From assembly GCA_033763975.1 (NCBI GenBank), contig JANRJM010000017.1, positions 186,001 through 250,000 on the forward strand: a DNA stretch of 64,000 nt, written 5' to 3'. The notes below the pieces were generated by a model. That model saw only the letters and a list, made by a program, of their open reading frames with translations. It was not told the origin of the DNA and searched no databases. Source of the DNA: Planctomycetota bacterium (GTDB lineage: Bacteria; Planctomycetota; Phycisphaerae; Phycisphaerales; UBA1924). Positions 48,548 to 60,042 of this stretch are shown here, piece by piece; the first letter of the stretch is position 1; every line of letters starts with the position of its first letter. A program made the translations under genes and the position numbers.

Positions 48548-49114
48548 ATGCACCCCATCACCGCACAGATCATCGAGATGTTCCGCTCGCGGGGCTCGTC
48601 GCAGTACGGGCACGAGGCGGTCACGCAGTTGCAGCACGGCCTGCAGGCCGCCTGGCTCGCGGAGAAGGAGGGCGCCGACGCGGAGTTGATCTCGGCGGCG
48701 TTGCTGCACGACGTCGGGCACCTGCTGCACGACCTGCCCGACGACGCGCCCGACCAGGGGATCGACGACCGGCACGAGGTGCTGGGCGAGCGCTGGCTGG
48801 ACAAGCACTTCTCGGATCGCGTGGTGGAGCCGGTCCGGCTGCACGTGGACGCGAAGCGGTACCTGTGCGCCGCGGAGCGCGGGTATCTGGAGCTGCTGAG
48901 CGAGCCGTCGCGCCAGAGCCTGATGCTGCAGGGCGGGCCGATGAAGGGGAATGAACTGGCGGCGTTCGAGTCGCACCCGCACCGCGATCGTGCCGTGCGC
49001 CTGCGCCGGTGGGACGACCAGGCGAAGGACCCGGCGCTCGAGACGCCCCCGATCGAGCACTTCGCGCCGTACCTCGACGAGGCCGCCGGCCTGGCGTCGG
49101 AGCACGCGCGATGA
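48548..49114 (+). CDS. HD-domain oxygenase resembling PhnZ
   Basis: 188 residues from ATG 48548, preceded by GAAAGGAG. The HD motif L-L-H-D-V-G-H-L-L-H-D (H54/D55 and H58, H61) and the earlier Y20-G-H-E23-A-V-T-Q-L-x-H30 match the phosphonate-degrading mixed-valence diiron oxygenase group, in which a Tyr and Glu three residues apart gate the iron site. The best-known member, PhnZ, splits a hydroxyphosphonate to glycine and phosphate. The partner PhnY gene is not in the window. The start of a PhoD-type phosphatase gene overlaps its stop (ATGA), which also points to phosphorus scavenging. The substrate itself is not proven. Confidence 0.75.
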   Translation: MHPITAQIIEMFRSRGSSQYGHEAVTQLQHGLQAAWLAEKEGADAELISAALLHDVGHLLHDLPDDAPDQGIDDRHEVLGERWLDKHFSDRVVEPVRLHVDAKRYLCAAERGYLELLSEPSRQSLMLQGGPMKGNELAAFESHPHRDRAVRLRRWDDQAKDPALETPPIEHFAPYLDEAAGLASEHAR

Positions 49115-50220
49115 GCCGACCGCGCACGATGCGCACGGCACGGATGTGGCGGGCCGCCGTCGCGGCGGGCGCGTGCGTCACGGGAGCCGCGGCGGCGCAG
49201 AACGCCCCGCCGGGCCCGAGCGTCGCCGGGCAGGCGCAGCCCGCGCGCACGCTGCCGGTGCCCGCGAAGGACCCGCGCGATTTCCGCGTGTCGGTGCTCG
49301 GGTGCCTGCGTCAGAACAAGCCCGCGCCGGGGCTGGCGCGCTACGTCGAGCATCGCCCGGATCTGGCGCTGTGGGTGGGCGACAACATCTACGCCGACGC
49401 GAAGGACGACCCGGGCATCATCCAGCGCTGCTACGACCAGCTCGGCGCGAACCCGGACTTTCAGCGCCTGCGGGCGATCGCCCCGGCGATGGTGACGTGG
49501 GACGACCACGACTACGGCGACAACAACGAGACGAAGCACTACACGCTCAAGAACGAGAGCCGCGAGATGTTCGTGCGGTTCTGGGGTCTCGAGAAGGAGA
49601 TCCCGAGCACGCAGACGGGCATCTGGTGGTCGCGGGTGATCGAGACGTCGGGCAAGCGGCTGCAGGTGATCCTGCTCGACTGCCGCTGGCATCGCGACGA
49701 GCCGGGCCCGAGCGCGGACATGCTGGGCGAGGCGCAGTGGGCGTGGCTGGGCGAGCGCCTCGCGGAGCCGGCGGACCTGCGCCTGCTGGTGACGGGGTCG
49801 CAGGTGCTGCTGCCCAAGGAAGCCGGCTCGGAGACGTGGGACGAGTACCCCGCGGCCCGGGACCGACTGTTCGCGCTCGTGCGCGAGAAGCGGGCGCAGC
49901 GGGTGCTGCTCGTCACGGGCGACCAGCACTACGCGGAAGTCTGCCGCCGGCGCGGCTCGTTCGGGTACGACGCGATCGAGCTGCAGTTCGCGGGGATCAA
50001 CCAGACCGAGAAGCCCGAGTTCAACCCGTTCCGCGTCTCGCCCTGCGCGACGGCGCTGCACAGCGACGCGATGATCGACATCCGCTGGGACGCCGACGAC
50101 TACGAGCCGGCGCACGTGCTCTTCCGCGTCTTTAACAGCAGCACCGGGCAGGTCGAGATCGCGTACCGCGTGAACTTCTCGGAGATCGAGGCTGGCTCGG
50201 CGGCGAGCGGCGGGAAGTAA
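49111..50220 (+). CDS. Exported PhoD-like metallophosphatase
   Basis: 369 residues with a signal peptide (ends near A-A-A-A-Q). The metallophosphatase blocks are L-W-V-G-D-N-I-Y-A-D (metal-site Asp and Asn), V-T-W-D-D-H-D-Y-G-D-N-N (the PhoD W-D-D-H-D motif) and V-T-G-D-Q-H-Y (C-terminal His). The family hydrolyses phosphate mono- or diesters in the periplasm. Its twin-Arg signal is not obvious; residues 1-12 are Arg-rich but lack R-R-x-F. It is translationally coupled to the PhnZ-like gene. Confidence 0.87.
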   Translation: MSRPRTMRTARMWRAAVAAGACVTGAAAAQNAPPGPSVAGQAQPARTLPVPAKDPRDFRVSVLGCLRQNKPAPGLARYVEHRPDLALWVGDNIYADAKDDPGIIQRCYDQLGANPDFQRLRAIAPAMVTWDDHDYGDNNETKHYTLKNESREMFVRFWGLEKEIPSTQTGIWWSRVIETSGKRLQVILLDCRWHRDEPGPSADMLGEAQWAWLGERLAEPADLRLLVTGSQVLLPKEAGSETWDEYPAARDRLFALVREKRAQRVLLVTGDQHYAEVCRRRGSFGYDAIELQFAGINQTEKPEFNPFRVSPCATALHSDAMIDIRWDADDYEPAHVLFRVFNSSTGQVEIAYRVNFSEIEAGSAASGGK

Positions 50221-50260: not shown

Positions 50261-50953
50261 GTGCGTACCCGCGACCGGCGCCCGGAACTGATGGACGATC
50301 CGGGCATCGACCCTGCCGAACACCGCCGGGCGCTGCGGGCCCTCTCACGTCTGAACGCTGTTTCGGGCGTGGCCTCGTCGATCCGCCCGCACCTCCTCGA
50401 GCTCGCCGCCCGCCACCGGCCCGTGCGATGGCTCGACGTGGCGACCGGCGCGGGCGACATCCCCGTCGCAGTCGGGGCGTGGTGCGCCCGGCGGGGCATC
50501 GCGCTCGACGCGCACGCGTGCGACATCTCGCCCGTAGCGCTCTCGCACGCGTCGCGGCGCGCGCAGGACGTCGGGGTTTCACTCACATTCCATGAGGCCG
50601 ACGCAATCCGGGGTGAACTGCCGGAGGGCTTTCACCTGGCGACGTGCAACCTGTTCCTGCACCATGTCGACGAGGCGGACGTCGTCCGTGTGCTGCGAGC
50701 GCTTGCTCGCAGCGGCGCGCGGGTGCTCGTGAACGACCTGCGCCGCACGCGGCTCGGGCTGGCGTTGGCGTGGGCGGCGTCGCGCGTCGGCACGCGCTCG
50801 CGGGTGGTGCACATCGACGCCGTGCGATCGGTGCGCGGGGCGTTCACGTCGCGCGAACTGGGCGCGATGGCGGACGAGGCGGGAATGCGGGGGCATCGCA
50901 TCCGCCATGTCTGGCCGCAGCGAATGCAACTGGAGTGGAACCGCCCGTCATGA
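50261..50953 (+). CDS. SAM-dependent methyltransferase of a type III PKS cluster
   Basis: 230 residues from GTG 50261. The class I fold shows W-L-D-V-A-T-G-A-G-D-I-P (SAM motif I), then C-D-I-S-P-V-A-L and later N-L-F-L-H-H. It resembles the methyltransferase of phenolic-lipid gene sets. Downstream are a flavoprotein overlapping as ATGA and a type III PKS overlapping as GTGA, so this is a three-gene operon. By analogy with the Streptomyces srsABC set it would methylate a phenolic or pyrone lipid after the PKS acts. The product is unknown. Confidence 0.85.
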   Translation: MRTRDRRPELMDDPGIDPAEHRRALRALSRLNAVSGVASSIRPHLLELAARHRPVRWLDVATGAGDIPVAVGAWCARRGIALDAHACDISPVALSHASRRAQDVGVSLTFHEADAIRGELPEGFHLATCNLFLHHVDEADVVRVLRALARSGARVLVNDLRRTRLGLALAWAASRVGTRSRVVHIDAVRSVRGAFTSRELGAMADEAGMRGHRIRHVWPQRMQLEWNRPS

Positions 50954-52140
50954 CCCTCGCCCCCTCGATGTCGCCCGCCGTGCCCACGTCGGTCGAGGCC
51001 ACGCCGCTCGAGCACGCCGCCATGCAACGGTGGGACGCGATTGTCATCGGCGCTGGCCCGGCGGGCGCGCTCGCGGCGGTGCACCTGGCCCGCGCGGGCG
51101 CGCGCACGCTGCTCATCAACCGCGATCCGCTGCCCCGGCGCAAGGTCTGCGGCGGGTGCCTGTCCGACGCCGGCGCCGCGCTGGTGCGTGAGGCGTGCGG
51201 GCCGGACGCGCTGCGCGACCATCCCACGCTCGGCGAGTTCGCGCTGCGCGTGCGAGGCCGCTCGCTGCGCGCGACGGTGACGCCCTTCGTGTCGATCCCT
51301 CGCGCGGACCTGGACGCGTGCGTGGCCGGCGCGGCGGTGCGCGCGGGCGCGACGTTCGTCGTCGCGCGGGCGCGCTGCATCGCGACGGGCGTCGTCGAGG
51401 CCGACGACGGCGCCGGCGTGCATGCCCTGCGAGGCGGCGTGGTGATCGCGGCCGACGGGCTGGCGGGGTCATCCCTTTCGCACGACCCCCGATTCGCGTG
51501 GCGCGTCGCGCGCGGGCCACGCGTGGGGCTGGGCGCGATCGCGCCAGCGGACGGCCTTCCCGTGCGGGACGGCGCGATCACCATGCTGTGCGCCCGCGCG
51601 GGCTACGTCGGCATCGCGCCGCTGCGCGACGGGCGCGCATCGGTCGCGGCGGCGGTCAACCCCGCCACGATCCGCGCCCGCGGGCCCGCCGGGGCGCTCG
51701 GCGCCATCGCCGCGTCGTGCGGCGTGGACCCCGCGCCGTTCGAACGCCTGACGCTCGCCGGCACGCCCGCGCTCACCCGCATGCGCCGGCGCGTCGAGGG
51801 CGACCGGCTGCTCCTGGTCGGCGACGCCGCGGGCTACGTCGAGCCCTTCACCGGCGAGGGCATGACCTGGGCGCTGCGGTGCGGGGCGGCGTGCGTGCCC
51901 GTGGCGCTCGAGATGCTGCACGCCCGCGCCCCGGCGGGCGCGTGGACCTCGCACCTGCGCCGCCTGCTCGCCCCTGCGCGCCTTCGCTGCCGGGTGGTGT
52001 CATTGGGCGTGCGCAGCGCGCCGGTCCTGGCCGGCGTCGTGCACGCCGCGGGCGCCGTGGCGCCGGGGATCGTCAACGCGATCGCGCGGCGTATGTCGCG
52101 ACCGGTGTTCATGGGCGCGCTCGCGGGGACGCGCGGGTGA
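50950..52140 (+). CDS. FAD-dependent monooxygenase/reductase of the type III PKS cluster
   Basis: 396 residues. An N-terminal Rossmann motif (A-I-V-I-G-A-G-P-A-G-A-L-A-A, about 30-43) binds FAD. R-K-V-C-G-G-C-L-S-D recalls the geranylgeranyl-reductase/hydroxylase group, and L-L-V-G-D-A-A-G-Y-V-E-P-F-T-G-E-G-M is the second FAD motif. It is probably a flavoprotein hydroxylase or reductase acting on the polyketide lipid. It overlaps both neighbours by four bases, so expression is tightly coupled. A reductase of isoprenoid-like double bonds is an alternative. Confidence 0.86.
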   Translation: MTLAPSMSPAVPTSVEATPLEHAAMQRWDAIVIGAGPAGALAAVHLARAGARTLLINRDPLPRRKVCGGCLSDAGAALVREACGPDALRDHPTLGEFALRVRGRSLRATVTPFVSIPRADLDACVAGAAVRAGATFVVARARCIATGVVEADDGAGVHALRGGVVIAADGLAGSSLSHDPRFAWRVARGPRVGLGAIAPADGLPVRDGAITMLCARAGYVGIAPLRDGRASVAAAVNPATIRARGPAGALGAIAASCGVDPAPFERLTLAGTPALTRMRRRVEGDRLLLVGDAAGYVEPFTGEGMTWALRCGAACVPVALEMLHARAPAGAWTSHLRRLLAPARLRCRVVSLGVRSAPVLAGVVHAAGAVAPGIVNAIARRMSRPVFMGALAGTRG

Positions 52141-53219
52141 CGGCCACCCTGCGAGCGATCGGGACGTGCGTGCCCGAGCACGCGCTCACGCGCGCCGAGG
52201 CCGCGCGACTGGCGGGCGAGATCTCCGGCGCCGACGAGCGCCGCGCGCGGATGCTGCGCGCCCTGGCCGACCGAACGGGGATCGACCGTCGCGGGCTGAC
52301 GATCGCCGACGGCACGGGCGGGCAGTCGTTCTACCGCGCGGGGCGCCCGCCGACCACGGGCGAGCGCATGGAGGCCTACCGCGGGGCGAGCCTGGGCATG
52401 GCCGAGCCGGCGTGCCGCGACGCGCTGCGGCGTGCGGGCGTCGACGCCTCGTCCGTCACGCACGTCGTGGTCGCGTCGTGCACCGGGTTCGGCGCGCCGG
52501 GGATCGACCAGGCGCTGATGCGCGGGCTCGGCATTCCGCGCGACGCGCGACGCACGATCGTCGGGTTCATGGGGTGCCACGGCGCGATCAACGCCCTGGC
52601 CGTGGGCGCCGCGTTCACGCACGCCGACCCCGACGCCGTCGTGCTCGTGTGCGCGGTCGAGGTCTGCGGGCTGCACTTCTCGTTCGACGATGAGCCCGAT
52701 CATGTCCTCGCCAACACGCTCTTCGCCGACGGCGCCGCGGCCGCAATCCTCACCGGGCGCCCCGCGCCGGGATGCCCGCACATCTGTTCGACCGCCAGCG
52801 TGCTCATCCCGGATTCACACACCCTCATGCGCTGGGACATCGGCGACCACGGCTTTCGGATGCGGCTGTCGCCCAAGGTGCCCGACGTGCTCGCGACCCA
52901 CGTCCCCGCCTGGATCGACGGCGTGCTGCGCGACCGAGGCCTCGCCCGCGCGGACGTCGGCGGGTGGGCGATCCACCCGGGCGGCCCGCGCATCGTCGAC
53001 GTGCTGCGAGAATCGCTCGGGCTCCGCGACGATCAGGTCGAGCCCTCACGCAAGGTGCTCCGCAGCCACGGGAACATGTCGTCCGCGACGGTGCTGTTCA
53101 TCTTGCGCGACCTCTGGGCGCGCGACGCCGCCACGCCCTGGGTCGGCATGGCGTTCGGCCCCGGGCTCGCGGGCGAGGCGGTCGTGCTCGGCGCGCCACA
53201 GAAGGCGAGTGCTCCCTGA
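52137..53219 (+). CDS. Type III polyketide synthase
   Basis: 360 residues, the normal chalcone-synthase-fold length, from GTG 52137. The catalytic triad is visible: Cys147 in F-M-G-C-H-G-A, His280 in I-H-P-G-G-P-R and Asn313 in S-H-G-N-M-S-S. The thiolase dimer pattern (V-V-V-A-S-C-T-G-F-G-A-P-G-I-D) is intact. Such enzymes extend long-chain acyl starters with malonyl-CoA to make resorcinols or pyrones. It sits downstream of methyltransferase and flavoprotein genes as a complete operon. A hairpin in the gap to the convergent ahcY gene may end both transcripts. Confidence 0.93.
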   Translation: MTATLRAIGTCVPEHALTRAEAARLAGEISGADERRARMLRALADRTGIDRRGLTIADGTGGQSFYRAGRPPTTGERMEAYRGASLGMAEPACRDALRRAGVDASSVTHVVVASCTGFGAPGIDQALMRGLGIPRDARRTIVGFMGCHGAINALAVGAAFTHADPDAVVLVCAVEVCGLHFSFDDEPDHVLANTLFADGAAAAILTGRPAPGCPHICSTASVLIPDSHTLMRWDIGDHGFRMRLSPKVPDVLATHVPAWIDGVLRDRGLARADVGGWAIHPGGPRIVDVLRESLGLRDDQVEPSRKVLRSHGNMSSATVLFILRDLWARDAATPWVGMAFGPGLAGEAVVLGAPQKASAP

Positions 53220-53269: not shown

Positions 53270-54802
53270 TCAATAGCGGTAGTGGTCGGGCTTGTACGGG
53301 CCGTCCTTCGGCACGCCGAGGTACGACGCCTGGTCGTCGCGGAGCGTGGTGAGGCGCACGCCGAGCTTCTCGAGGTGCAGGCGGGCGACCATCTCGTCGA
53401 GCTTCTTGGGCAGCGTGTAGACCTTGCCCGTCTCGTACTTGATGCCGGCCATCGTCGGCTTGCCCTGCGCGTTCGCCCACAGGTCCATCTGCGCGACGAC
53501 CTGGTTCGTGAACGACGCGGACATCACGAACGAGGGGTGCCCGGTGGCGCAGCCCAGGTTCATCAGGCGGCCCTCGGCGAGGATGAGGATCGACTTCTCG
53601 CGCCCGCCCGCTCCGGCGGCGGGGAAGACGAACTCGTCGTACTGGGGCTTGATGTTCACGCGCTTCACGCCCGGGTGCTTCGCCAGCCCGGCCATGTCGA
53701 TCTCGTTGTCGAAGTGCCCGATGTTCGCGACGATCGCCTTGTCCTTCATCGCGCGCATGTGGTCGACGGTGATCACGTTTCTGTTGCCCGTGGCGGTGAT
53801 GAAGATGTCCGCCGTGCCCAGCACGTCCTCGAGCGTCACGACCTGGTACCCCTCCATGGCGGCCTGGAGCGCGCAGATCGGGTCGATCTCCGTCACCACC
53901 ACGCGGGCGCCCTGGCCCTTGAGCGCCTGGCAGCAGCCCTTGCCCACGTCGCCGTAGCCCAGCACGACCGCGACCTTTCCGCTCAGCATCACGTCGGTCG
54001 CGCGGTTGAGCCCGTCGACCAGCGAGTGCCGGCAGCCGTAGAGGTTGTCGAACTTGCTCTTGGTGGCGCTGTCGTTCACGTTGATCGCGGGGAACATGAG
54101 CTTCCCGCTCTTCTGCATGTCGTAGAGGCGGTGCACGCCGGTGGTGGTCTCTTCCGACACGCCCTTGATGCCCTGGATGACGCGCGTCCAGCGCCCGGGC
54201 TTGTTCGCCTGGTCCTGGCGGAGGAGTTTGAGGATCACGCCCCACTCCTCGGGGTCGTTGGCCTCGTCGAACGCGGGCACCTTGCCGGCGCCCTCGAACT
54301 CAAAGCCCTTGTGCACGAGCAGCGTGGCGTCGCCCCCGTCGTCGAGGAGCATGTTGGGCCCCTGCCCGCCGGCGAAGTTGAAGATCTGGTCGGTGCACCA
54401 CCAGTACTCGTCCAGCGTCTCGCCCTTCCAGGCGAAGACGGGCGTCCCGCGCGGGGCCTCGGGAGTGCCGTGCCGCCCCACCGCGACCGCGGCGGCGGCG
54501 GAGTCCTGCGTGCTGAAGATGTTGCACGACGCCCAGCGCACGTCCGCGCCGAGCTCGACGAGCGTCTCGATCAGCACCGCCGTCTGCACGGTCATGTGCA
54601 GCGAGCCGGCGATGCGGGCGCCCGCGAGGGGCTTGCCCGGGCCGTACTTCTCGCGGAGCGCCATCAGCCCGGGCATCTCGTGCTCGGCAAGGCGGATCTC
54701 GTGGCGCCCGAGCGTGGCGAGCGACAGGTCGCGCACCTTGAAGTCGGGCGCGTCGGTGCGAACGGTGGAGGGCGTCACGGGCTTGGCGGCTGCGGTGGTC
54801 AT
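53270..54802 (-). CDS. ahcY: S-adenosylhomocysteinase
   Basis: 510 residues. It hydrolyses SAH to adenosine and homocysteine, keeping methylation reactions running. The substrate-binding blocks [13 protein letters not shown] and [10 protein letters not shown] and the NAD-binding [10 protein letters not shown] are clear, and the C-terminus K-P-D-H-Y-R-Y is the family end. It is longer than many (about 430-470), mainly by an N-terminal extension and an internal insert around 160-200 that is usual in bacterial long forms. An ArsR-methyltransferase regulator lies 100 bases upstream on the same strand, so SAH-responsive control is likely. Confidence 0.96.
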
Positions 54803-54902
54803 TCGTGTCTCCGTTGCGGCGTCGCACGCCGCGGTTCGATGGGTGATTCGTCCGACCGGATCTCTCCGGTGCTTCGTCTGTCGTGCGCTTCGGATTCCCT
54901 GC
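54803..54902 (-). promoter_or_regulatory. Leader of ahcY with two hairpins
   Basis: The 100 bases between the regulator gene and ahcY hold two perfect 6-bp stems: ACCGGA/TCCGGT (54855-54870) and GCGGCG/CGCCGC (54816-54832). The second lies directly upstream of the ribosome-binding site GGAG. A half-site TTCGTCCG similar to the operator lies at 54847-54854. I could not match the SAH-riboswitch core with certainty. Confidence 0.35.
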
Positions 54903-55859
54903 CTACTTCACTCGTCCCGTGGCGGCGAACAACCCGGGACCCTTGGCGCCCGGATCGCCCGGGAGTTCGTGGTACACGCAATCGGCGAACCCCGCCGCCT
55001 GCATCAGCCCCAGGATCTCCTCGCGCGAGAATCCCAGCTTCTTGTGCCCCATCAGGCGGCGGTATTCCTCACGCTCGTGCTCGATCATGTCCACGATGAG
55101 CACCTTCCCGCCCGATCGCTCCCGACGCAGGATCCGCCGGATCTCCGCCAGCGCCTGGTCCGGGTGATCGATGTGGTGCAGCACCAGCACGCAGACCGCG
55201 GCGTCGACGCACGCGTCGGGCAGCCCGGTTTGCTCGAGCCCCGCCTCGACAAAGTCCACGTTCGCCACGTGATCAAGACGCTTGCGGGCCGCGTCCAGCA
55301 TCGGGCCCGACAGATCCACCGCGTACACGCGCTCCACGAACGGCGCGAGAAACTCCGACGCGTTCCCCGTCCCGCAGCCCAGGTCGGCGATGACCCAGTC
55401 GCGGTGGATGAGGCTCAGCAGCGCCACGCTCGTGAACCGCCCGCCGAAGAGCTCGGCCCGCAGCGTGTCCCACTCGCCCGCGTGACGCCCGAAAAACGCC
55501 TGACTGTCCGTTCGCCGCTCGGCCAGCACGCCCTTGAGGCGGCGGAGATCGTCGGCCAGATCGGCATCGCCCCCGATCTGATCGCGCACCGCCGACCACA
55601 GCGTGCGCGCCTCGGGCGACAACTCGTCGGGCACGAGGCTGAAGTAGCTCGCCGTGCCCTCCTGCCGCCGCACCAGCCAGCCCGCGTCGGCCAGGGTCTT
55701 GAGGTGCCGGCTCACCGTCGATTGCGGGAGCTGCAGCACCTGGGCGATCTCGCCCACCGACAGCTCCTGCATCTCCACAAGGCGCAGCAGACGCAGCCGC
55801 GCAACCTCGCTGAGCGAGGCGAGCCGGTCAAGCAGAGATGATTCGCGGCGGGCTTTCAT
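54903..55859 (-). CDS. ArsR-type regulator fused to a SAM methyltransferase domain
   Basis: 318 residues. The N-terminal winged helix-turn-helix (about 10-80) has [21 protein letters not shown] and then Y-F-S-L. The C-terminal methyltransferase fold has [14 protein letters not shown] (SAM motif I) and [10 protein letters not shown]. No metal-binding C-V-C motif of classic ArsR sensors is present, so the effector is probably SAM or SAH bound by the second domain. A perfect inverted repeat overlaps its promoter and start, indicating autoregulation, and ahcY follows. ArsR-family SAH sensors (SahR) are known in Proteobacteria; this is a plausible analogue. Confidence 0.85.
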
Positions 55860-57246: not shown

Positions 57247-60042
57247 ATGCGTCTATCGCTGTCTGAGATCCGCGCTCGAGCGATGAAGTTCGCGGCCGAG
57301 TGGACGAACGTCGCGAGCGAACGCGCCGAAGCCCAATCCTTCTGGACCGATCTCTTCGATGTCTTCGGCATCCGCCGCCGCGCCGTCGCCAGTTTCGAGG
57401 AAAAGGTCAAAAACCTCAAAGGGGCCTACGACCGCATCGACGTCTTCTACGCAGGCGTCATGCTGGGCGAGCACAAGAGCAAGGGAGAAGACCTCTCCAA
57501 GGCCGCAAGCCAGGCGTTCGATTACGTGCAGTCGCTGCAGCGCGAAGGGCGGGACGCCGACCTGCCGCAGTTCATCGTCGTCAGTGACTTCCAGACCATC
57601 GTTGTGTACGACCTGGACAGCAAAGACTCATCGGTGCCGGTGGCGTCGTTCAAGACCGCCAATCTGCACGACAACATCAAGCACCTTGGCTTCCTGTCGG
57701 GCTACACCACCAAACCCGTTGATCCCGAAGACCCCATCAACATCGAGGCGGTCGAAGTCCTCGGCAAGCTGCACGATGCGCTGGAAAAGGGCGGCTATTC
57801 GGGCCATCAACTCGAACGCTTCCTCGTGCGCGTCCTCTTCTGCCTCTTCGCCGACGACACGGCCATATTCGAGAACGAAGAGTTCAAGGCGCTTGTCAAA
57901 GGCTCCCGCGAAGATGGGAGCGACCTGGGCCCGCTGCTGGCCCGCTTCTTCAAGGTGCTCGATCAGGAGAAGGGGGACCGCCCCGCCAAACTCCCCGAAG
58001 AACTGCGTGAACTGCCGTACGTGAACGGCGAGCTCTTCCGCGAGGACCTGGGCTTCGCCGAGTTCGATGCCGCCATGCGGGCCGCGCTGCTGGAGTGCTG
58101 CGAGTTCAACTGGTCCCGCATCAGCCCCGCCGTCTTCGGCTCGCTCTTCCAGTCCATTATGGCGGGCGAGAGCGGCGCGAGGAAACGCCGCCAGATCGGG
58201 GCCCACTACACCAGCGAGCGGGACATCATGAAGCTGGTGCGCAGCCTGTTCCTCGATGACCTCAAAGCCGAGCTCGCCGCGTGCGGCAAGGACAAGAAGA
58301 AACTCCAGGCCTTCCAGGACAAGCTGGCCTCGCTGCGCTTCCTCGACCCGGCCTGCGGCTGCGGCAACTTCCTTGTGGTCACCTACCGGGAACTGCGGCT
58401 CTTGGAACTCGAAGCCCTGATGCTCCTCTCCGGCGGCAAGGTGGACTCCGCCCGCCTGCTGCTGGATTCGCTGCTCAAGGTGGATGTGGACCAGATGCAC
58501 GGGATCGAGATCGAGGAGTGGCCCGCGCGCATCGCCGAGGTGGCGATGTGGCTCATCGACCACCAGATGAACCAGAAGGTCGGCGAAGCCTTCGGGCAGC
58601 CGGTGCGGCGCTTGCCCCTCAAGAAGAGCGCGAAGATTGCCCACGCCAACGCGCTGCAAACCGATTGGAACACGGTGCTGCCCGCGAGCAAGTGCAGCTA
58701 CGTGCTGGGAAATCCGCCATTCGTGGGCGCGAAGTACCAAAGCGATGCCCAACGTGCCGATATGGAGCACGTCTGCAAAGGCATCAAGAACGAGGGCCTC
58801 CTCGACTTCGTCTGCGGCTGGTACGTCGTCGCCTCGACGTACATCCGCGGCACACAAATCCGTTGCGGCTTCGTCTCGACGAACTCGATCACGCAGGGGG
58901 AACAGGTCGGCGTCCTCTGGCCGGAATTGTTCAGTCGCGGCATCAAGATTCACTTCGCCCACCGCACCTTCCAGTGGATGAGCGAAGCACGCGGGAAGGC
59001 CCACGTGCACGTAGTCATCATCGGCTTCGGCGCATTCGACAGGCCGGGCAAGATCATCTACGACTACCCCGACAGCGACGCCGACCCGATTCCTGTCGCG
59101 GCCGCCAACATCAGTCCGTACTTGGTCCCCGGACCGGATGTCGCCATCACGAATCGCTCATCGCCCCTGTGCGAGTCGCCAGACATCGGCATCGGCAACA
59201 AGCCCATCGACGACAGCAACTACTTATTCACGACGGAAGAAATGAAAGCCTTCGTGAAAGTTGAGCCAGGGGCCAAGAAGTACTTCCACCCGTGGTACGG
59301 ATCGGAAGAGTTCATCAACGGTGGGCACCGCTGGTGCCTATGGATTGGCGACGCGGACCCCGACGAGCTGCGCGCCATGCCCAGCGTCATGCAGCGGATC
59401 GAAAACGTGAAGAAGTTTCGCCTTGCCAGCAAGAGCAAGCCGACTCGCGACCTCGCCAAGAACCCGACACGCTTCCACGTCGAGAACATGCCCAAACGGC
59501 GGTTCTTGGTGATCCCCAAAGTGTCCTCGGAGCGCCGCACGTACATTCCGATGGGGCTCATGGAGCCCTCGGATATCGCCAGCGACCTTCTCTTCGTACT
59601 CACTGGAACCACGCCCTACCACTTCGGCGTCCTGACCAGCGAGATGCACATGGCCTGGGTCCGCCAAGTCTGCGGGCGGCTCAAGTCCGACTTCCGCTAC
59701 TCCAACAAGCTGGTCTACAACAACTTCCCCTGGCCCCAAGATGCCACACCCAAGCAGCAGGCCGCCGTCAGCGCCGCCGCCGAGCATGTGCTCGCCGTCC
59801 GCGACACGTTCAAGGGCCAGACGCTCGCCGACCTCTACGACCCGCTCGCGATGCCCAAGTCTCTGCGTGATGCCCACAAGGACCTCGACAGAGCCGTCGA
59901 CAAGTGCTATCGCGCCCAACCCTTCACGAGCGAACGCCAGCGGGTGGAGTATCTCTTCGACCTGTACCAGAAGCTCATCACGCCGCTGACTGCGCCGGTC
60001 AAGGGACGCAAACGCGCGGCCGAGGCCGAGCCCGAGGACTGA
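57247..60042 (+). CDS. Type IIL-like fused restriction-methyltransferase
   Basis: 931 residues in one chain. The N-terminal nuclease domain has D65 followed by G-E75-H-K77-S-K-G, a PD-(D/E)xK active site. The methyltransferase has L-D-P-A-C-G-C-G-N-F (367-373 region, SAM binding) and N489-P-P-F492, typical for adenine methylation. The last 300 residues should recognise DNA. This is the layout of MmeI-like enzymes that cut and methylate with one protein. No separate restriction or modification gene is near, as expected for this type. The base composition is clearly lower in GC than the flanking genes, a sign of horizontal acquisition. Confidence 0.87.
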   Translation: MRLSLSEIRARAMKFAAEWTNVASERAEAQSFWTDLFDVFGIRRRAVASFEEKVKNLKGAYDRIDVFYAGVMLGEHKSKGEDLSKAASQAFDYVQSLQREGRDADLPQFIVVSDFQTIVVYDLDSKDSSVPVASFKTANLHDNIKHLGFLSGYTTKPVDPEDPINIEAVEVLGKLHDALEKGGYSGHQLERFLVRVLFCLFADDTAIFENEEFKALVKGSREDGSDLGPLLARFFKVLDQEKGDRPAKLPEELRELPYVNGELFREDLGFAEFDAAMRAALLECCEFNWSRISPAVFGSLFQSIMAGESGARKRRQIGAHYTSERDIMKLVRSLFLDDLKAELAACGKDKKKLQAFQDKLASLRFLDPACGCGNFLVVTYRELRLLELEALMLLSGGKVDSARLLLDSLLKVDVDQMHGIEIEEWPARIAEVAMWLIDHQMNQKVGEAFGQPVRRLPLKKSAKIAHANALQTDWNTVLPASKCSYVLGNPPFVGAKYQSDAQRADMEHVCKGIKNEGLLDFVCGWYVVASTYIRGTQIRCGFVSTNSITQGEQVGVLWPELFSRGIKIHFAHRTFQWMSEARGKAHVHVVIIGFGAFDRPGKIIYDYPDSDADPIPVAAANISPYLVPGPDVAITNRSSPLCESPDIGIGNKPIDDSNYLFTTEEMKAFVKVEPGAKKYFHPWYGSEEFINGGHRWCLWIGDADPDELRAMPSVMQRIENVKKFRLASKSKPTRDLAKNPTRFHVENMPKRRFLVIPKVSSERRTYIPMGLMEPSDIASDLLFVLTGTTPYHFGVLTSEMHMAWVRQVCGRLKSDFRYSNKLVYNNFPWPQDATPKQQAAVSAAAEHVLAVRDTFKGQTLADLYDPLAMPKSLRDAHKDLDRAVDKCYRAQPFTSERQRVEYLFDLYQKLITPLTAPVKGRKRAAEAEPED

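Follow-up and report, generated by a model that had tools for sequence, protein, structure and literature searches.

A stretch of 64,000 nucleotides from a Planctomycetota bacterium of the order Phycisphaerales (assembly GCA_033763975.1, contig JANRJM010000017.1, positions 186,001 to 250,000; hereafter the window) carries three adjoining genes, at 50261-53219 on the plus strand, that encode in order a class I methyltransferase, a flavin adenine dinucleotide (FAD)-dependent oxidoreductase and a type III polyketide synthase (PKS). We have high confidence that they form an alkylresorcinol operon resembling the hierridin (hid) operon of picocyanobacteria, through which the bacterium would make a long-chain phenolic lipid and then decorate it. 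Gene content, gene order, overlapping reading frames and intact active sites are plain in the DNA, and the trio shares ancestry with an operon type whose spread in Planctomycetota and alkylresorcinol products are already in print (Milke et al. 2024, PMC10896814); to this known type the window adds a new, fairly divergent copy.

Gene content and gene order

The gene for the S-adenosylmethionine (SAM)-dependent methyltransferase (50261..50953, GTG start, 230 amino acids (aa)) runs into that for the oxidoreductase (50950..52140, ATG start, 396 aa) through an ATGA stop/start overlap at 50950..50953, and this runs into the PKS gene (52137..53219, GTG start, 360 aa) through a GTGA overlap at 52137..52140, all on the plus strand; coordinates and overlaps agree with what an earlier sequence-only reading had described. 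The first two genes hold the operon positions of HidA and HidB, and the PKS is HidC-like. Longer open reading frames (ORFs) of 498 aa and 674 aa are also listed in the same frames; we attribute them to the high GC content, the short versions being those to which relatives align.

Named relatives were taken from a scan of named genomes, as the 80 best loci of at least 589 confirmed candidates; a gene was counted where its match exceeded 40 bits, and loci L001-L003, from the bacterium's own genome, are left out of all counts of relatives. The methyltransferase, oxidoreductase and PKS genes lie on one strand in the same order in 59 of these 80 named relatives, and a further seven have the oxidoreductase upstream on a contig that ends before the methyltransferase could be seen. 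This recurrence, together with Pfam matches in all three proteins (Methyltransf_25, 5e-11; FAD_binding_3, 4e-11; Chal_sti_synt_C, 7.9e-22, and Chal_sti_synt_N, 2.3e-20), argues that the trio is not a product of chance. Within the phylum the full order is found at 23 of the 29 best loci, the other six having too little upstream sequence, and a plasmid record of Paludisphaera borealis holds an annotated trio in the same order. Milke et al. report such an operon, with the gene order of the picocyanobacterial hidABC, for 58 of 96 type III PKS genes from planctomycetes (PMC10896814).

A search across the phylum (294 genomes, own included) gave PKS matches at E <= 1e-20 in 104 genomes, and the weak ones among them may be other type III PKSs; matches are present in six of the seven genomes of the window's own family (own included; G270 is without) and in none of the seven genomes of the same class but another order. 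A lower abundance of type III PKSs is reported for the class Phycisphaerae (PMC10896814), and a 2025 review describes all compounds reported so far as coming from members of the class Planctomycetia (PMC12078418).

Rearranged versions were seen in Deinococcus (L114), Psychrobacter (L117), two Hymenobacter (L102, L112) and Pseudanabaena (L104): in a Deinococcus proteolyticus plasmid record the PKS comes first, followed by methyltransferase and oxidoreductase, and in a Psychrobacter urativorans plasmid record the methyltransferase-oxidoreductase pair lies on the opposite strand and converges on the PKS. At another locus (L118, a Sphingobium plasmid) carrier-protein and ketosynthase genes precede the PKS, with genes for a methyltransferase and an NAD(P)-binding protein after it; this variant may feed its PKS from a dedicated carrier.

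Judged from the surrounding genes, conservation seems to be confined to the trio, because nine neighbouring ORFs of the window gave no tblastn match at 1e-6 in 122 loci (L004-L125), a test that reaches close neighbours only, with about 2-4 kb for each of L004-L032 and with L119-L125 overlapping earlier loci; in the same search the methyltransferase, oxidoreductase and PKS matched 94, 97 and 122 of the 122. Neighbours of the planctomycetal operon are likewise described as non-conserved except in close relatives (Milke et al., PMC10896814). That operon is the closest described system, rather than the srs operon of Streptomyces; the two agree in the kinds and order of the genes, in phylum, in the type of PKS and in having non-conserved neighbours, and the window copy differs in lying in a subclade with Phycisphaerae metagenome-assembled genomes.

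Ancestry of the three proteins

The three trees are quick maximum-likelihood trees with support from the Shimodaira-Hasegawa-like approximate likelihood ratio test (SH-aLRT) and a midpoint root for display; oxidoreductase and methyltransferase rows below 200 bits or too short were dropped, which kept 87 and 60 rows besides the window, and the PKS tree holds 120 rows, with SrsA, ArsB and HidC (LEGE 06113) not among them. A fork of 105 of the 120 PKS rows (SH-aLRT 92; inner forks 81-90) joins the window with Gimesia, Pirellula, Gemmata and picocyanobacterial rows (Synechococcus, Cyanobium, Vulcanococcus), so that the window PKS shares a clade with the picocyanobacterial and Gimesia operon enzymes; same-phylum loci pair closely with the Gimesia locus. 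The sequence-only reading had held that a PKS placed outside the alkylresorcinol and alkylpyrone clades would undo its proposal; such a placement was looked for in this tree, and the window lies instead with the hid-like and planctomycetal operon enzymes.

Nearer the window, a nine-row fork (82) contains L037, L092 and six others, and an enclosing 17-row fork (83) adds L033, L034 and rows from the window's own family, both forks being drawn open. The oxidoreductase tree places the window beside L033 (84) in a five-row fork with L037, L092 and L107 (88), and the methyltransferase tree in a five-row fork with L033, L037, L092 and L106 (86), inside an 11-row set (98). Since all three trees put the window near the same Phycisphaerae/Planctomycetota rows (L033, L037 and L092) with moderate support, the three genes have probably moved together.

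Fourteen cyanobacterial hid-like PKSs (L035, L041, L044, L045, L046, L049, L050, L053, L055, L057, L070, L072, L077, L085) cluster with Paludisphaera and Schlesneria (SH-aLRT 96) in a part of the tree made up of planctomycetal rows; two further cyanobacterial rows, L075 and L104, are placed elsewhere in the PKS tree. This grouping hints at a transfer of the operon from planctomycetes to picocyanobacteria, as seen under a midpoint root, with moderate deep support and a sampling biased to relatives of the window.

Ring closure by the PKS

The PKS has the chalcone/stilbene synthase fold and the Cys-His-Asn triad of a type III PKS. The triad Cys147/His280/Asn313, which the sequence-only reading had called intact, was verified by position and is identical in 108/108 relatives (the loci L004-L112, with L032 dropped as a PKS fragment below 330 aa) and in 10/10 reference rows. 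Two further positions are constant or nearly so: Trp233 is kept in all 108 aligned family rows and is Leu in PKS18, 7cb3, 4b0n and a Streptomyces row, and Met242 is kept in 107 of the 108 and is Cys in PKS18, 7cb3 and the Ectocarpus PKS, Met at this position being non-exclusive in that Deinococcus, Sphingobium and Streptomyces reference rows share it. Trp233 precedes Met242 by nine residues, as Gly256 does Phe265 in the numbering of chalcone synthase (CHS), so Trp233 presumably corresponds to CHS Gly256 and to Trp281 of ArsB, a protein absent from our alignments. By this numbering the window PKS carries the ArsB-type Trp and, as Met242, the Met of the HidC clade at the Phe265 position.

Both residues have a literature behind them. 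The W281G variant of ArsB from Azotobacter vinelandii is reported to have lost alkylresorcinol and gained alkylpyrone formation, with the opposite shift in ArsC G284W (PMC6274091); the Trp is described as conserved in the resorcinol formers FtpA, SrsA, PKS10 and PKS11 (PMC5916927), and Met at the Phe265 gatekeeper position is reported in the HidC clade (PMC8086630). The window shares the ring-closure Trp with ArsB, as placed by this alignment and numbering, and differs in that ArsB is reported from another kind of operon, one that includes a fatty acid synthase (PMC6274091); with hidABC of Cyanobium sp. LEGE 06113 it shares the gene order and the Met (via PMC10896814 and PMC8086630). Expression of the G. 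maris, R. baltica, S. maiorica and 'S. ferox' PKSs is reported to have given alkylresorcinols: in C. glutamicum those of the three-gene operons of G. maris and R. baltica and of the two-gene variant of S. maiorica made pentadecyl- and/or heptadecylresorcinols, and two PKSs from outside such operons are reported as giving no product (PMC10896814).

Because of Trp233, Met242 and the products of the operon PKSs of Milke et al., we read the window enzyme as an alkylresorcinol synthase whose product is methylated; by analogy that product is most likely a 5-alkylresorcinol, then methylated and perhaps hydroxylated. We infer that the PKS would load a long-chain acyl group, from acyl-coenzyme A (acyl-CoA) or an acyl carrier protein, on Cys147 and add three malonyl units, and that a decarboxylative C2-C7 aldol condensation would then close the tetraketide, Trp233 acting as a wall that may favour the aldol fold. 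The sequence-only reading had proposed a phenolic-lipid gene set for an alkylresorcinol or alkylpyrone pathway; the gene set is indeed of the alkylresorcinol type, and of the two rings the resorcinol is the likelier, given Trp233 and what the operon enzymes made in the work of Milke et al.

An enzyme making mainly alkylpyrones, that is, lactonised tri- and tetraketides as from PKS18 or ArsC, with the other two enzymes modifying them, seems to us quite improbable. In its favour, PKS18 and its M. marinum orthologue are among the best solved structures by sequence, and Pks11, with structure entries named for alkylpyrones, has the Trp as well. By fold, the predicted model of the PKS (predicted local distance difference test (pLDDT) 91.7) has Pks11 (4jao) as its top match (Z 48.5, root-mean-square deviation (rmsd) 1.9, 344 aligned). 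The 50 rows listed all fall at Z 47.0-48.5, a range that leaves the PKS unplaced among type III PKSs, and the absence of ArsC from those 50 excludes nothing. Against it, PKS18, 7cb3 and the Ectocarpus PKS have Leu for Trp233 and Cys for Met242 and branch in the tree as a group of their own (99), apart from the family, and the productive operon-type enzymes are reported to have given resorcinols (PMC10896814). Pks11 falls with Nonomuraea and Steely1 in another outside group, a join that the tree program marks as perhaps due to long branches; Pks11 is grouped with the resorcinol formers in PMC5916927.

We give almost no credence to a DpgA-like enzyme forming 3,5-dihydroxyphenylacetyl-CoA. The DpgA model NF042429 is the only type III PKS model among the five NCBIfam matches of the PKS (4.1e-53), yet its 180.5 bits stand against an equivalog cut-off of 425 bits, and because all 22 scanned rows, the window included, match it, we take the match as a marker of the superfamily. 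Partners of the dpgBCD type are expected beside DpgA; the partners here are a methyltransferase and a flavoprotein.

Several observations weigh against a hid-like alkylresorcinol operon. Fourteen of the 80 named relatives are without the arrangement despite room for it; among these, L067, L102 and L112 have an oxidoreductase upstream, and two Hymenobacter and one Pseudanabaena have a methyltransferase downstream of the PKS. The presence of the same Trp in Pks11, whose structure entries bear alkylpyrone titles, makes Trp233 suggestive only, and the Streptomyces row with Leu there sits beside the family on a long branch. The characterised products considered here come from other organisms and from enzymes outside the window's own subclade. 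Identities between the window and picocyanobacterial rows (four each; PKS 44-46%, methyltransferase 40-45%, oxidoreductase 30-35%) lie below the 48-55% reported, by another method, for planctomycetal-cyanobacterial operon proteins (PMC10896814). Finally, a promoter scan found no promoter-like site, which has little meaning at such GC content.

Tailoring enzymes, surroundings and significance

At E <= 0.001 all family matches of the methyltransferase are to class I families, and none is to isoprenylcysteine carboxyl methyltransferase. Its NCBIfam match, NF004851/PRK06202 (3e-55; 187 bits, below the 243-bit cut-off), is common to 16/16 aligned methyltransferase rows, window included, in which H134-H135 and D159-L160-x-R162 are invariant. 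This bears on the srs operon of Streptomyces griseus, to which the sequence-only reading had likened the trio and from which a methylated alkylresorcinol or alkylquinone with methylmalonyl extension would follow. The likeness holds for the enzyme categories (type III PKS, methyltransferase, flavoprotein/monooxygenase), and SrsA is reported to have the Trp (PMC5916927); it fails for the gene order and the methyltransferase type. In an srs-like operon of Marisediminicola antarctica, 51-63% identical to that of S. griseus, the homologue of srsB bears the annotation isoprenylcysteine carboxyl methyltransferase (PMC6669644), a family that the window methyltransferase does not match, and srsABC is described with another gene order and with malonyl and methylmalonyl extension (PMC6669644, PMC5916927). 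The nearest stand-ins for methylmalonyl users, Pks11 and Nonomuraea, lie outside the family in the join flagged above, in a tree without SrsA. Among seven ORFs scanned at the Nonomuraea and Streptomyces reference loci none is an srs-like methyltransferase (one Nonomuraea ORF matches class I families), which makes these loci weak srs stand-ins. We hold an srs-type pathway to be very improbable.

In the hid-like alkylresorcinol operon that we favour, the methyltransferase would add one or more methyls on a ring carbon or on the phenolic oxygens. The G. maris methyltransferase and oxidoreductase are reported to add one methyl, probably on carbon, and HidA to methylate two oxygens, so that methylation may differ between the window and hidABC (PMC10896814).

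The flavoprotein would oxidise the ring, most likely by hydroxylation, to give a decorated phenolic lipid or its quinone. It matches the geranylgeranyl-reductase superfamily model TIGR02032 (8.6e-32; 111 bits, below the 158.8 cut-off), as do 25/25 aligned oxidoreductase rows, window included. Searched by fold, its AlphaFold2 model (pLDDT 90.2) finds halogenases first (Z 31-35; FasV, 8zop, Z 34.6, rmsd 3.5, 356 aligned), slightly above the reductase-like 3oz2 (Z 31.7, rmsd 3.1, 342 aligned) and the hydroxylase 1ykj (Z 31.0, rmsd 4.0, 357 aligned), with p-hydroxybenzoate hydroxylases at about 29-31, a ranking that leaves the reaction unsettled; the profile search puts 3oz2 first (1.7e-27) and the halogenase CmlS second (5.4e-25). 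Flavin-dependent halogenases have the motif WxWxIP, and the region expected to hold it reads GYVGIAP. Ring hydroxylation seems the likeliest reaction; hierridin B bears an extra ring hydroxyl, and for the oxidoreductase of G. maris Milke et al. leave the role open (PMC10896814). It is unlikely, in our estimate, that the divergent flavoprotein of this subclade, whose model ranks slightly nearer phenol halogenases than reductases and hydroxylases, acts on a C-methylated alkylresorcinol in a way not yet described, by halogenating it or oxidising it to a lipid quinone, to give a new phenolic lipid and that the cyanobacterial hierridin operon came from planctomycetes, the latter suggested by the nesting of picocyanobacterial operons within the PKS tree of planctomycetes.

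The host genome (3.27 Mb, 97% complete) has no second PF00195 match above the cut-off; L002, at 19.9 bits, falls below it and is left out of the type III PKS count. The genome also encodes two AMP-binding proteins, both generic. Around the trio, a PhoD-like phosphatase gene (49009-50220, plus strand), one of the nine neighbours above, stops 40 bases upstream of the methyltransferase gene on the same strand. Downstream, an adenosylhomocysteinase gene, ahcY (53270-54802, minus strand), is directed towards the operon and is preceded by a gene for an ArsR-type helix-turn-helix fused to a SAM-methyltransferase domain (54903-55859, minus strand), which we take to resemble SahR, a regulator sensing S-adenosylhomocysteine. 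Given this likeness, ahcY, which follows the SahR-like gene on the same strand (the pair spans 53270-55859), is probably part of a separately regulated unit rather than of the PKS operon. The gene at 57247-60042 (plus strand) encodes a restriction-modification enzyme of the MmeI type, in which five MmeI domains of Pfam score above the cut-off. The terminator scan gave a single terminator-like site, on the minus strand within the upstream gene, against 0.6 in shuffled sequence.

Together, these results extend the set of planctomycetal alkylresorcinol operons by a well-supported, rather divergent copy from beyond the species whose products are cited here, one that leaves existing knowledge of the pathway unchanged. 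They single out Trp233 and Met242 as bearing on ring type, and the trio offers a sequence source for the flavoprotein step of the pathway.

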